A stretch of 64,000 nucleotides of DNA from the IMG/VR virus record IMGVR_UViG_3300024261_000015, positions 18,711 to 82,710 of that record; one strand, 5' to 3'. Position numbers and translations under genes: made by a program. The notes under the pieces are model-generated. The model did not search any database and was not told the DNA's origin. It was given only the letters and a program-made list of their open reading frames with translations. Shown here piece after piece: positions 21,119 to 61,730 of the stretch (position 1 is the stretch's first letter; the number at the start of each line of letters is the position of its first letter). Origin of the DNA: a virus.

Positions 21119-21195
21119 GGGACGGTAGCCCAATCGGTAGAGGCAACAGACTTAAAATCTGTTAAGTGCGGGTTCGAATCCCGCTCGTCCTACCA
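21119..21195 (+). tRNA. tRNA-Leu(UAA) with a short variable loop
   Basis: Acceptor GGGACGG pairs with TCGTCCT, anticodon stem ACAGA/TCTGT encloses loop CTTAAAA (anticodon UAA), T arm GCGGG-TTCGAAT-CCCGC, discriminator A and encoded CCA. The variable loop is only 5 bases (TAAGT), although leucine tRNAs normally carry a long variable arm. The D stem has three good pairs. Reads UUA, a codon common in the AT-rich phage genes. Confidence 0.93.
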
Positions 21196-31018: not shown

Positions 31019-31096
31019 TGGTAGGGGGAATGGGATTCGAACCCATAACCTTTCATATATAAGATGAATGCACTAACCTGATTGTGCTATCCCCCT
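31019..31096 (-). tRNA. tRNA-Ile(UAU)
   Basis: Acceptor AGGGGGA/TCCCCCT, D arm GCAC-GTGC, anticodon stem TTCAT/ATGAA with loop CTTATAT (anticodon UAU), T arm ATGGG-TTCGAAT-CCCAT, discriminator A and encoded CCA. It reads AUA directly, whereas most bacteria use a CAU anticodon modified to lysidine for this codon. AUA is frequent in the AT-rich phage genes. Confidence 0.93.
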
Positions 31097-44976: not shown

Positions 44977-45780
44977 TTACTGGTTGGGCCAGTCATCCCA
45001 AGTGTTGATGTCCATAAAAGTTCCATCATCCCACACATTTCCGTTGACCTGAATCCAAGGGTCATAGTCCCATTGAAGAACACCAAAACGAAAATCGGTT
45101 CCAAAAGTATTATCATTGAACCTAATCCTAGTGGGGCTAGGAATGCCCCCAGATGCGTGTTCTGTAATATATACAGTATAGTTACCTCCTTGAAAATGGT
45201 TGCCCCAAATCAAAATCCGCTCAACGGGTGCTAATTGTGTTTGTATTATAATACAGGCATTACTGTTATACCCATTCGCGTCTGCAAAGCTAACAGGCAT
45301 ATCAAAGTGGTTATAAGCAATCATAACATCCGAACCTCCTGTCATTTGCAGTCCGTCAGCATGGGAACCCGAATTCCTGCCAATACGGGCAATATAATTA
45401 CCTATAATTCGACAATGCCCTTTGGTAGAGATTTTAATTGCGTCTGCTCCACACTCCTGAATATCATTACCGATGACTCTAGCGTACTGTACATATACAG
45501 CGGAAGAATTGGAACCTCTAAAGGTACAGTTCTCAACCAACAGATTAGTAGAGCGGGGCTGACTATTAGAATCATAATAGACATTAGAAAGCCCATAAGA
45601 CCCTGCGTTGATAGGAAGCAAGAAGGTACAGTTTCTAACGATAACATCGTGAGCTTTCACAGAGAGTTGACTCGTAAAAGCTTGTCCGTCAATGATAGTA
45701 CCGTCTACGGTAATAACATCAGCGATTGCTGGCGCGGTAGCACCTAGCAGTAAGAGGGTAGTTAAAATAAGTTTCTTCAT
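44977..45780 (-). CDS. Exported parallel beta-helix protein
   Basis: 267 residues: signal peptide MKKLILTTLLLLGATAPAIA, then a right-handed beta-helix (many NCT, NHF, N-x-F turns: VIVRNCTF, VENCTFRG, AYNHFDM) as in pectate lyases and depolymerases. The signal peptide means it is exported by Sec, not built into virions in the cytoplasm. It has a clear ribosome-binding site (GAGGAAA). Confidence 0.82.
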   Translation of the reverse strand: MKKLILTTLLLLGATAPAIADVITVDGTIIDGQAFTSQLSVKAHDVIVRNCTFLLPINAGSYGLSNVYYDSNSQPRSTNLLVENCTFRGSNSSAVYVQYARVIGNDIQECGADAIKISTKGHCRIIGNYIARIGRNSGSHADGLQMTGGSDVMIAYNHFDMPVSFADANGYNSNACIIIQTQLAPVERILIWGNHFQGGNYTVYITEHASGGIPSPTRIRFNDNTFGTDFRFGVLQWDYDPWIQVNGNVWDDGTFMDINTWDDWPNQ

Positions 45781-45790
45781 AGTGTTTTCC

Positions 45791-46612
45791 TCATTGATTG
45801 GGCCAGTCATCCCAAGTGTTGATGTCCCATTGACCGTAATCCATAAGGCTTCCATCAGCCCAACGGTTTCCGTTGACCTGAATCAGGGGGTCGTAGTCCC
45901 AAGAAAAAGGACCAAAGCGGTAATCATCGGTAAAGGTATTGTTATTCACGCGGCACATGGTAGGAGCTTGCCAAGGGGAGCCGTTCTTGTGAGTAAGGAA
46001 GATGGAAAAGTTTCCACCATCAAATAGGTTGCCAAAGATGAAGATGCGTGAGATATCAGCGCTTCCATCATGAATCATGCAACCAGCGTTGCTGCCCCAA
46101 GGACCGCTATCCGCATGACTGATGGGGATGTCGAAGTGATTGTAAGCAATCAAAACATTAGAGCCTCCAACCAGTTGAAGACCATCTGCATGAGAACCAG
46201 GAATTAAACCAAGACGAGCAGTATGATTTCCAATAAAGCGGGAATTGCCTCTAGTACTACATTTCATAGCATCAGAGCCCACATCGGTAATATCATTAAA
46301 CATGACTCTAGCATGGTGGACATAGATTCCAGTAGTTCCACCTCGAACAGTACAGTTCTCAATCAAGAGATTAGTTGAGCGAGGGTTCCCATTGGAGTCA
46401 TAATACACATTGGAGATACCGTACCATCCATCGGAACCATCCCAAGCCATATCAATAGTACAGTTTCGAATAATAACATCGTGAGCTTTCACAGAGAGGG
46501 TACTCGTAAAAGTTTGACCATCAATGATAGTACCGTCTACGGTAATAACATCAGCGAGTGCTGGGGCGGTAGCACCTAGCAGTAAGAACAAGGTTAAAAT
46601 AATTTTATTCAT
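45791..46612 (-). CDS. Exported parallel beta-helix protein, paralogue
   Basis: 273 residues, same layout as the gene downstream: signal peptide (IILTLFLLLGATAPALA), identical VITVDGTIIDGQ start, and the shared end INTWDDWPNQ. The high identity at both ends with divergence in the middle points to tandem duplication followed by change in the binding surface. TATAATATAATATG precedes the ORF. Confidence 0.83.
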   Translation of the reverse strand: MNKIILTLFLLLGATAPALADVITVDGTIIDGQTFTSTLSVKAHDVIIRNCTIDMAWDGSDGWYGISNVYYDSNGNPRSTNLLIENCTVRGGTTGIYVHHARVMFNDITDVGSDAMKCSTRGNSRFIGNHTARLGLIPGSHADGLQLVGGSNVLIAYNHFDIPISHADSGPWGSNAGCMIHDGSADISRIFIFGNLFDGGNFSIFLTHKNGSPWQAPTMCRVNNNTFTDDYRFGPFSWDYDPLIQVNGNRWADGSLMDYGQWDINTWDDWPNQ

Positions 46613-49946: not shown

Positions 49947-51674
49947 ATGAAAGACCCCATCCTAGAATTCTCATCAATATCAGTGGTATATGATTACATA
50001 AACAGCCTTCAGTCTAATACCCCCAGCGTCAGGGATGAATGTGATATCTCTTCCTACCAAATAAATCATTTTCAAGTAGGTCAAGGAGCTTCCTCAGTAG
50101 TAGAAGCGTCCTCTGTTATATCTTTAGGCGCACCCCTTACCGATGAGGAATATGGCGGAGTTCTTCGAAGTGTAGACGTGACGAGCGCAACGCTTTACAT
50201 TAGGGAAGGCGTACCCTTTACAGACCAGGACTTCGTTTCTATTACAAACCAAGGCCAGCTAGGAACTTCATCTCTTGTAAGTGTAGTATTTCTCGATGAA
50301 CAGACAGCTAATGGTACGACTATTAACGAGGTAGGTCTTTTTGTAGACAACCCATTCCTCGTACAAGGTCAGGCGTCTCAATTAGAGCAGGCACCTACTA
50401 ATAATCCAAATCAACTTGGGTTTGCGCCAAATTCACCTTCAAACTCTACGGTTGATACTTCCCCTAGAGAAGAGCCTGGGCACCTTTTGGCTGCTTACAG
50501 GCATATTACACCCATTCAGAAAGAAGACTACTTCTCTTTAATGATACGTTGGACCCTTAACTTTACCGAAGACAGGTCCCCCTTCGTACCCACCACCACA
50601 TCTGTAACCTCCTCCTATACTACTTCTACTTCCACAACCACTACCTCTACAACCTCTACTTCTACTGCTACTACCTCTACAACAACCTCTACTTCTTCAA
50701 CAACCTCTAGCTCTACTACCTTAACAACCACTACCTCTACTACTTCAACAACCTATACTACTACTCTTACTACTCTTACTACTACTACCCCCACTACCCT
50801 CACTACCCTCACTACTCTTACTACTACAACCTCTACCACTCTTACTACTACAACCTCTACTACCCCCACTACTCTTACTACTCTTACTACTCTTACTACT
50901 CCCACTACTCTTACTACTACAACCTCTACTCTTACTACTACAACCTCTACTACTCTTACTACTACAACCTCTACTACTCTTACTACTCTTACTACTACAA
51001 CCTCTACTACTCTTACTACTACAACCTCTACTACTCTTACTACTACCCCCACTACCCTCACTACCCTCACTACTCTTACTACTCTTACTACTACCCCCAC
51101 TACCCTCACTACTCTTACTACTCTTACTACTACAACCTCTACTACTCTTACTACTACAACCTCTACTACTCTTACTACTCTTACTACTCTTACTACTACA
51201 ACCTCTACTACTCTTACTACTACAACCTCAACTACCGCAGCAACGACAGTAGTAACAACGACTACGACCACTGCGGCCCTACAGACTCCTTGGTATACAT
51301 ATGTTGACCCCGATAACGGTAATGATGTACTAACTATTTATGCTGTACCCACGGCTTGGCCTCCACCGTATGGGCCAGGACGAATAGCTGGTAGTGCTGG
51401 AAATAGCTATTACCATGGTCTTAAAAGGAGTGGGTCTCGCCCAGGCCCATACAGCTATAGCTTAAAGCTATTTAATTCTGTATCAGCAACCATAGCTACT
51501 TACTCAGCATCGGCTAGCACAACCGCTATTGAGGACCTCGTTGAGGATATTAACACTGGTCACACTAATTACGACTACATTTTTGCCATTTTCCATAATG
51601 AGAGTGAGGCGGAATACTCAGAACCTAACACCTTTGCCAACGCAACTCAATTTACTAACGGAAGTGGCGGATAA
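49947..51674 (+). CDS. Tail or fibre protein with long Thr-rich repeat
   Basis: 575 residues. About 1-210: ordered beta-rich domain with ISLGAPLTDEEYGG and NEVGLFVDNPF, as in tail-fibre assembly regions. About 215-430: an almost uninterrupted T/S/L tract. About 440-575: a second ordered domain (YTYVDPDNGNDVLTIYAVPT). Two globular ends joined by a mucin-like stalk suggest an extended fibre or host-binding stalk. Confidence 0.65.
   Translation: MKDPILEFSSISVVYDYINSLQSNTPSVRDECDISSYQINHFQVGQGASSVVEASSVISLGAPLTDEEYGGVLRSVDVTSATLYIREGVPFTDQDFVSITNQGQLGTSSLVSVVFLDEQTANGTTINEVGLFVDNPFLVQGQASQLEQAPTNNPNQLGFAPNSPSNSTVDTSPREEPGHLLAAYRHITPIQKEDYFSLMIRWTLNFTEDRSPFVPTTTSVTSSYTTSTSTTTTSTTSTSTATTSTTTSTSSTTSSSTTLTTTTSTTSTTYTTTLTTLTTTTPTTLTTLTTLTTTTSTTLTTTTSTTPTTLTTLTTLTTPTTLTTTTSTLTTTTSTTLTTTTSTTLTTLTTTTSTTLTTTTSTTLTTTPTTLTTLTTLTTLTTTPTTLTTLTTLTTTTSTTLTTTTSTTLTTLTTLTTTTSTTLTTTTSTTAATTVVTTTTTTAALQTPWYTYVDPDNGNDVLTIYAVPTAWPPPYGPGRIAGSAGNSYYHGLKRSGSRPGPYSYSLKLFNSVSATIATYSASASTTAIEDLVEDINTGHTNYDYIFAIFHNESEAEYSEPNTFANATQFTNGSGG
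50600..51235 (+). repeat. Tandem short repeats encoding Thr-Thr-Leu/Thr-Ser units
   Basis: Built from ACTACTCTT and ACTACAACCTCT words in several arrangements, with many blocks repeated exactly. Imperfect direct repeats of this kind are prone to slippage and recombination. The minus-strand open frame across it is a by-product of the repeats. Confidence 0.92.
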
Positions 51675-59740: not shown

Positions 59741-60604
59741 ATGAATCAAGACTCAATTGTTGACCTAGTAAAACAACACCAAGCAGGAAACCCAGGTGGT
59801 TCTCCACAGGAAGCCCCTAAGACCTCTCAGGAAGGCGCTGTAGACCACAAAGCTCAGATGATGTCCGAGAACATCCCTGTAGATAAGAACGTTGAGGCGG
59901 CGTTAGAGGCGCTCTTAGGGAAAGTGAAAAGCAAAATGGCGTGGAGCGAGATTGTTTTACCCTCTCAAGGTCTTTTGTACCCTGACGGTCAAAAAACGAT
60001 AAGGATTCGCCCCTTCACTTTCGAAGACGAGCGAATTCTAAAAAGCATGGACGGGATAAAGGACCCTGATGCGGTTATTGAGCGATTGCTCCGTAATGCA
60101 ACGGACGGGTTGGAGGTTGGAGAGCTAACCCCCCATGATAGGGTTTACGTTCTTTACCGCTTGAGAGGTATCTCTTATGGCGATGGGTATGAAGTAACGC
60201 ATGACTGCGATAAGTGCAGCATTACAAGCAAACTAGAGCTTTCCATTAAGAGCTTAACTACTACGAATCTTACGCGAGAGCATATGGTATTTACTTTACC
60301 TGACTCCGAGCAGGAATGCGAGGTGAAGTTGCCTAGGATGCAAGACGAGCATCTTTACAACAATAACTCTAACCTTATGAACAACATGCACATGTTTGTG
60401 TACCGCGTAGGTAATATCACCGACAAGACAATTATCGAGGCGTTTATCCATAAGACTACTGTGCGTGATATCGACACTCTACGAAATAGAATCTTCGCTC
60501 CTGAGTATGGGATGGAAAACCATTTCTTTTATACATGTGCAGGGTGCAGCACGAAGAACAAGGTTGACATTCAGTTGAATGAGAATTTTTTTACAGCGAG
60601 CTGA
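59741..60604 (+). CDS. Baseplate hub/tail assembly protein, T4 gp26-like
   Basis: 287 residues. WSEIVLPSQGLLYPDGQKTIRIRPFTFEDE is the signature start of the T4-type baseplate hub protein family; CDKC and CAGC form a zinc knuckle. Near its end U UUU UUU (60586-60592) offers a -1 slip site leading into the overlapping 64-codon frame. Confidence 0.8.
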   Translation: MNQDSIVDLVKQHQAGNPGGSPQEAPKTSQEGAVDHKAQMMSENIPVDKNVEAALEALLGKVKSKMAWSEIVLPSQGLLYPDGQKTIRIRPFTFEDERILKSMDGIKDPDAVIERLLRNATDGLEVGELTPHDRVYVLYRLRGISYGDGYEVTHDCDKCSITSKLELSIKSLTTTNLTREHMVFTLPDSEQECEVKLPRMQDEHLYNNNSNLMNNMHMFVYRVGNITDKTIIEAFIHKTTVRDIDTLRNRIFAPEYGMENHFFYTCAGCSTKNKVDIQLNENFFTAS

Positions 60605-60786
60605 AGGAGGGCTGGAAAGATGATGGGCTAGAACGACAAGCCTATTTCCTCGTGAAGCACATAAATTTAAGTCTTTCTGACGTATACAAACTAACTTTAC
60701 TAGAACGAAGCACGTATATAAAGCTGTTAAAGGAAGAGCGCTCCCAACAAAATGAAGAGTTGGAACAAGCTCAGAGAAAACACTAG
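60592..60786 (+). CDS. Probable -1 frameshift extension of the hub/chaperone gene
   Basis: A 64-codon frame without its own ATG that continues the -1 frame from T TTT TTT. It encodes GLERQAYFLVKHINLSLSDV, a helix and acidic end of the kind found in tail assembly proteins. The slipped product would be 348 residues. The G/GT-type tail chaperones work this way. An alternative is initiation at an internal GTG near 60652. Confidence 0.6.
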   Translation, partial: YSELKEGWKDDGLERQAYFLVKHINLSLSDVYKLTLLERSTYIKLLKEERSQQNEELEQAQRKH

Positions 60787-60794
60787 ATACTTTT

Positions 60795-61730
60795 ATGGCA
60801 AGCTTCAATAACTTCTCCGTCGTTAAACGGTGGAATAGGCCGAGCGTTCTCATGAAGACGCTCCTAGAGACCTTCTTTACGAATAACGGTACTTACTTTA
60901 AACCTTACAGCGTAAGTACTGTTTATATCCTCCCAGATACCTCCCTAACTAACGGAAGTCCTGATATTTATATTAACCGTCAGGTTAGTGATATGGGGAC
61001 TTCGGCGTATGGCCTTTTAAACGCGTCTAGCTTATCCTCCGTCCAAGCTACATTTGGAGGAGATATAAGTCTTATAGACCTTAACCCCTCCGCTTACCAG
61101 GGCGCGGGAACGGATAGCGCGAGCGGGATTTATAGCGGAAGCACTTCCGCCGACCCTGGGCACTTCCAGGTAGTTCTGGACGGGTCACGGAGCTTCTTGG
61201 AATTCTCCGCTGTAGGTAAATATTTCGATGTTTGGCTTGTTAAGGACTTCGAAGACGCGTTTGATGCTTCATCGGGATGGCAGTTGTATTGGAATAAATT
61301 CGAAGTCTTTAGTGACCGAATTGTAACATTTACAGAGCCTTACCAAGTCACTACTAAAAATAAGCTATCTCAAAAATACATTCAGCTAAGCTCAATCCCA
61401 ACACTTCGAATTACTACGGACGTATTCTTGGCTAACAGGAATATGTCTAGGGACTTAAAGGATATCTGGAGGGAGCAGGTAATTGATGACGCAGAGATTA
61501 GAATTATGCGGAGGAACCCTAGAACCTCAGGATTGATTACTAAAATCGTCCCTGGTCCTGGGCCTAACCAGGGGGACTGGTCTAGGGAAACTAATGTAAG
61601 CTCGGAGAACACCATCACCTTTACCTGGGATACGACCCAGTTAGAGGCAGGAGATTACTTCGTTCAGTGCAAATATACTCTCCTAGAGCAGACATTTGTA
61701 AGCGAAGAGTTCAGTCTAGTGCTTCGGTAA
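60795..61730 (+). CDS. Baseplate or tail structural protein
   Basis: 311 residues, beta-rich: an N-terminal 150 residues with repeated Ser/Thr strands and a C-terminal Ig-like domain (TFTWDTTQLEAGDYFVQCKY). Its end overlaps the convergent primase gene by 20 bases. Family not identified. Confidence 0.6.
   Translation: MASFNNFSVVKRWNRPSVLMKTLLETFFTNNGTYFKPYSVSTVYILPDTSLTNGSPDIYINRQVSDMGTSAYGLLNASSLSSVQATFGGDISLIDLNPSAYQGAGTDSASGIYSGSTSADPGHFQVVLDGSRSFLEFSAVGKYFDVWLVKDFEDAFDASSGWQLYWNKFEVFSDRIVTFTEPYQVTTKNKLSQKYIQLSSIPTLRITTDVFLANRNMSRDLKDIWREQVIDDAEIRIMRRNPRTSGLITKIVPGPGPNQGDWSRETNVSSENTITFTWDTTQLEAGDYFVQCKYTLLEQTFVSEEFSLVLR

Follow-up and report, generated by a model that had tools for sequence, protein, structure and literature searches.

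The tail assembly chaperones of T4-like phages reportedly come in two genetic arrangements: Vladimirov et al. (Virology, 2022) are said to have found a frameshift kept in several T4-like groups, with T4 using separate genes, 26 and 51. In phage lambda, a short form (gpG) is accompanied by a −1 frameshifted long form (gpGT), and a review describes G–T frameshifting as widely conserved among long-tailed phages, T4 excepted (PMC5009743). A further source counts gp26 and gp51 of T4 itself among the hub assembly chaperones and places gp51 outside the particle; a hub location of gp26 has genetic support as well, according to the same source (PMC3004832). For the TAC locus of Vandenendeviridae and phage Adele, a −1 shift is proposed to take place on a conserved poly-T motif close to the end of TAC-N, and the work concerned cites Vladimirov et al. 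for poly-T slippery sequences in the TAC-N genes of T4-like phages (PMC12846349).

Here we describe a locus in a 64,000-nucleotide stretch of viral DNA (the window), which is included in an 82,710-base virus fragment. As judged from its sequence, the gene at 59741–60604, for which the usual annotation name would be ‘baseplate hub’, is in all likelihood a gp26-type tail assembly chaperone gene of a contractile-tailed T4-type phage, with a short form produced by normal reading and a long form by −1 ribosomal frameshifting; very probably, one gene yields both a short and a long version of a protein that helps in building the tail. The likeness to lambda gpG/gpGT is one of arrangement, and gp26-type proteins, set beside that pair, carry two conserved CxxC pairs. 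The poly-T motif of the Adele locus is given as GTTTTT in PMC12846349, compared with T_TTT_TT(T/C) in loci of the window type.

A slippery heptamer lies in frame ahead of the hub stop codon

The hub open reading frame (59741–60604, + strand) starts with ATG, encodes the 287-amino-acid short form and ends in AAT TTT TTT ACA GCG AGC TGA. Its zero frame contains the heptamer T_TTT_TTT at 60586–60592 (+ strand), which conforms to the X_XXY_YYZ pattern of programmed −1 ribosomal frameshift sites, and the TGA that terminates the short form (60602–60604, + strand) is the fourth codon past it. Slipping back by one base opens a frame of 64 codons (60592–60786, + strand, including a stop at 60784–60786) whose product, which would give the long form its gp51-like C-terminal domain, runs from YSELKEGW to QRKH. 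This overlapping frame is open and has no good start of its own: it lacks ATG entirely, and its sole ATG, GTG or TTG codons are the GTG at 60652 and the TTG at 60760. Because the −1 frame is closed upstream by a stop at 60580–60582 and the zero frame by its own stop at 60602–60604, any shift between them is confined to 60583–60604 (+ strand), a stretch within which the heptamer falls. The sequence-only reading that drew attention to this locus had pointed to T TTT TTT in the correct frame near the hub stop and to a 64-codon continuation without ATG, both of which are present. Its proposal of a probable programmed −1 frameshift finds strong support in the conserved site, frame and extension described below.

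Runs of seven T's occur 29 times in the window against 35 expected, so that the run alone is not rare. Across the 118 stop-to-stop frames that reach 100 codons or more (62 on one strand and 56 on the other), with ten kinds of heptamer tried, the hub frame alone (1 of 118) combined a slippery heptamer within 40 nt of its stop with a −1 extension 50 or more codons long.

Heptamer and extension are conserved among relatives

A first protein scan recovered three close loci (L001, L002 and L003, with 82, 100 and 98 per cent identity, respectively), in which the 24 bases from the GAG before AAT through the stop are identical to those of the window. A further scan of viral contigs used five aligned hub proteins, of which those of L014 and L016 had themselves been found via the extension; the best 80 of 177 relatives were kept by similarity to the window hub. 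Three of these (L017, L018 and L021) are L001–L003 again, and one (L063), which runs off its contig with no hub stop, was left out, leaving 79 loci, 64 of them distinct around the site.

In the best 80 of 177, all 79 loci with a hub stop carry T_TTT_TT(T/C) in frame, with C as the last base in 58 and T in 21. The distance from heptamer start to hub stop is 16 nt in 78 of the 79 and 25 nt in one. The −1 extension measures 52–62 codons in all 79, and the +1 frame continues for at most 36 codons past the hub stop. Among 61 distinct extensions (the window and L014–L016 included, L005 and L078 excluded), the −1 frame is free of stops by construction, and it is the length that carries the signal; both other frames contain stops in every one. 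Among six near sequences, third positions of the −1 frame took the most substitutions in 14 of 15 pairs, the exception being L020–L019 (32/14/30 by codon position), and the counts were nearly even in L021–L019 (22/15/23). A pattern scan of genome contigs returned 16 matches and no relatives.

Two large phage genomes hold further members of the family. In LR756511.1 (L005, 595 kb), TTTTTTC stands in frame 70 nt ahead of the hub stop and the −1 extension continues for 51 codons beyond it. In LR756508.1 (L007, 484 kb), the hub belongs to the same family, the −1 and +1 frames are open for 38 and 86 codons past its stop, respectively, and no clear shift site was found.

Short and fused products align as T4 gp26 and gp51

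The short form matches PF12322 (T4_baseplate) with an E value of 1.8e-17 and 64.2 bits (cut-off 24.5), the family of which T4 gp26 and gp51 are both full-length members. On phrog_150 (282 columns), it covers columns 16–233 (E 3.7e-21, 76.8 bits), and the fused window protein covers columns 16–280 (87.8 bits); T4 gp26 ends at column 235 and T4 gp51 spans columns 13–280. Because these column ends agree, the shift would extend a gp26-like short form into a long form of gp51 type, and in L014, too, the fused form extends further along the profile than the short form. The family phrog_634 (‘baseplate hub assembly catalyst’), which T4 gp51 also matches, was weakly matched by the window's extension alone (E 0.0017); with a threshold of E 0.1, it was matched by 15 of 29 aligned extensions, the best at 5.4e-7. 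The hub profile aligned with T4 gp26 at an hhalign probability of 91; T4 gp51 as a single sequence was weak (18 against the hub profile, 2 against the extension profile), and the claim of gp51 homology accordingly rests on family profiles and not on single-sequence comparison. The opposition drawn in the sequence-only reading between ‘tail chaperone’ and ‘gp26-like’ protein does not hold up, in that, by family membership, the gp26-like protein would itself be the chaperone in its short form, with the −1 part as its gp51-like C-terminal domain.

The hub model (mean pLDDT 82.8) had 61 matches in BFVD at E 0.001 or better, to proteins of the baseplate hub or of its assembly from many phages. Its best PDB match was 3klu (YqbN), which we take to be an XkdN-type tail chaperone, at a middling Z of 5.4 (rmsd 3.7 over 82 residues; Z of 2 or more in 2 of 676 chains), and searching PDB sequences with the hub profile gave no match. 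The extension was modelled as a helical unit (pLDDT 84.5), for which a fold search against the PDB found no chain at Z 5 or more and no convincing match.

The gene lies in the genome of a contractile-tailed phage

Upstream of the window, the 82,710-base fragment contains a tail sheath gene (phrog_23, E 7.5e-70; PF04984 only below cut-off) and a T4-type tail tube gene, from which we infer a contractile tail. No tape-measure gene was recognized in the fragment, where a 907-amino-acid product without PHROGs match follows the tube gene. The chaperone gene sits directly upstream of the tape-measure gene in SP-15 and LIS04, and one small gene lies between the two in HTVC008M. The next gene in the window (60795–61730, + strand, 311 amino acids) had no Pfam or PHROGs match; by eye, N termini like that of its product come after the extension in L001, L014 and L016, distant relatives among them.

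Elsewhere in the fragment, threonine-rich low-complexity tracts with LTTTTSTT-like repeats occur in two open reading frames (window 49947–51674, and positions 2–1288 of the fragment, G000:C1), and two adjoining similar reading frames on the − strand (window 44977–46612; 292 and 273 amino acids) have, by eye, the look of a tandem duplication. The window also contains genes for tRNA-Leu (TAA; 21119–21195) and tRNA-Ile (TAT; 31019–31096).

A stem-loop is predicted downstream of the heptamer

A stem-loop predicted at 60600–60658 (+ strand; minimum-energy fold −19.6 kcal/mol) begins 7 nt past the heptamer, a spacing usual for stimulators of shifting, and may act as one here. Over 75 nt starting 11 nt after the heptamer start, the window fold had a z of −2.23 against synonymous resampling. 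Across relatives (L005 and L078 excluded), the mean z was −1.05 in 51 sequences versus −0.29 in 153 hub windows (p 2.4e-6, the sequences being related to one another), and a late-extension control of 51 windows had a mean of −0.23. Dinucleotide shuffles gave a mean z of −1.36 in 62 sequences versus −0.08 and −0.21 in two control stretches. The signal is not general, as z lay above −1 in 23 of the 51 sequences, and the predicted folds differ among groups of relatives. The window failed a plain longest-helix test with a score of 0.90 (90 of 100 resamples as good), and 0.05 was reached by 12 of 51 sequences. A downstream stem-loop as stimulator is favoured statistically and not proven.

A single shared RNA fold was sought and not found, and covariation was weak: RNAalifold on six near sequences returned a covariation term of +0.17, with 3 of 19 pairs changed on both sides. 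Rfam had no match within 60400–60900. An upstream Shine–Dalgarno stimulator was also rejected, an SD-like word being present in 1 of 62 distinct sequences.

Alternative explanations for the −1 frame

We considered whether the −1 frame could instead be translated from its own start, for example GTG 60652 or CTG 60601, as a separate small gp51-like product. A separate small ‘hub assembly catalyst’ gene is indeed annotated after gp26 in P-SSM2, HTVC008M and S-CRM01, and an SD-like AAGGAGG occurs at 60604–60610. However, this word ends 41 nt upstream of GTG 60652, lies downstream of CTG 60601 and is absent from L001. The −1 frame of the window has no ATG, and within the first 25 codons 28 of the 61 distinct extensions lack ATG, GTG and TTG alike, with such a codon present in the remaining 33, as ATG in one case. 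In addition, a conserved E-L already appears 3–4 residues past the slip, and independent initiation leaves the conserved in-frame heptamer unexplained, making a two-protein arrangement very improbable.

The remaining possibilities concern the T run itself. RNA polymerase slipping on it would give mRNAs of altered length and the same fused protein, for which the seven T's in the window and in 21 of 79 relatives offer some room, but 58 of the 79 sites read TTTTTTC and so present a six-T run, which is short for polymerase slippage. Moreover, the X_XXY_YYZ register in the zero frame, needed for ribosomal but not for transcriptional slippage, is kept in 79 of 79, and we regard a transcriptional origin as just as hard to credit as separate initiation. 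Homopolymers are also error-prone in sequencing and assembly, and an error here could have broken up what is truly one uninterrupted reading frame. Such an error would have to recur in all 79 loci, most of which have T6C sites, and in named, mostly cultured phages that show the same arrangement; as far as comparison of these sequences can tell, this explanation, which we consider next to inconceivable, is largely refuted by conservation. A chance run of T's was ruled out by the frame, position and conservation of the heptamer.

Under −1 ribosomal frameshifting, most ribosomes would end at the stop of the 59741–60604 reading frame and release the short chaperone. A minority would slip back one base at T_TTT_TTT (60586–60592), with two Phe tRNAs re-pairing, bypass the stop and append 64 residues to give a long form of 348 residues. 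If the division of labour follows that of lambda gpG/gpGT, the tape-measure protein would be coated by the short form, and tube subunits would be recruited by the long form.

A sister group with a +1 (or −2) continuation

The hubs of LIS04, SP-15, GXN1 and LR756508 were used for a second scan, which found at least 513 relatives, of which the best 80 were kept (L097–L176; L006, L008 and L009 are sister loci as well). Three without a stop (L100, L107 and L148) were left out, and in all 77 remaining loci of these best 80, one of them SP-15 itself, the +1 (equivalently −2) frame is open for at least 43 codons past the hub stop. In L128 it is open to the contig end; L113 has an even longer −1 frame, of 96 codons. 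The commonest site context is TTT TTT TGG CCT (34 of 60 distinct), with others reading TTC TTT TGG, TTT CTT TGG, TTT CTA TGG and TTT TTT CGT CC; the TTT CTA TGG and TTC TTT TGG sites speak against a simple −2 slip, insofar as sequence contexts can indicate.

The −1 and +1 extensions are homologous to each other (hhalign probability 96.9, E 1.9e-10, 54 columns). On phrog_150, the fused sister products of L127 and L117 end at column 234, and the profile does not show their C-terminal part. We lean towards the view that the direction of recoding changed within one gp26-type family, with the window clade shifting −1 at T_TTT_TTY, the sister clade (LIS04, GXN1 and 77 viral-contig loci) shifting +1 (or −2), for instance at TTT_TGG_CCT, and T4 using two genes, so that both isoforms would have been kept while the mechanism was swapped. 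In literature searched by the names SP-15 and LIS04, no mention of a shift in the sister group was found, and neither ‘frameshift’ nor ‘tail assembly chaperone’ was found in the available part of the LIS04 genome paper (PMC12160530).

Comparison with known systems

The sequence-only reading had held a shift to be less usual for a gp26-like protein, which the named T4-like phages do not bear out. We compared P-SSM2 and 12 others, chosen for diversity among 60 listed of 686 tblastn records and comprising cyanophages, a Pelagibacter phage, Pootjesviridae, Pseudomonas pf16, Vibrio phages and two Straboviridae. A −1 extension of 55–63 codons follows gp26 in all 13, and T_TTT_TT(T/C/G) is present in 11. 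The Vibrio phages D503 (L202) and VP-1 (L205) have the −1 extension and no poly-T heptamer, with CTT TTC and GTT TTT there instead.

Like the window, P-SSM2 gp26/gp51 has a heptamer (T_TTT_TTC) in frame just ahead of the gp26 stop and a −1 extension, here of 58 codons; the distance from heptamer start to stop is 10 nt, against 16 nt in the window, and two genes are annotated. The P-SSM2 gene was absent from six records matched by tblastn with the window protein. A single PF12322 match was found in each of the window's 82.7-kb fragment, P-SSM2, LIS04, GXN1, LR756511 and LR756508, and a single phrog_150 match in 10 of 10 other records searched, several of which are fragments, compared with two PF12322 genes in T4.

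What would be annotated as ‘baseplate hub’ plus a stray small reading frame would thus be one recoded tail chaperone, a correction to annotation that adds a well-conserved, testable site to the known frameshifts of bacterial viruses. The general picture of tail chaperones is unchanged by this clear but ordinary example; because the named T4-like phages carry the −1 extension and mostly also the poly-T site, the window locus is a further case of a known arrangement. A close parallel is with PF12322 in T4, where the short form aligns as gp26 and the fused form as gp51 over the same profile columns, but gp26 and gp51 are two separate genes on opposite strands, whereas the window has one gene and a shift. 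These comparisons are consistent with the view that the two-gene solution of T4 departs from the shift used by its relatives.
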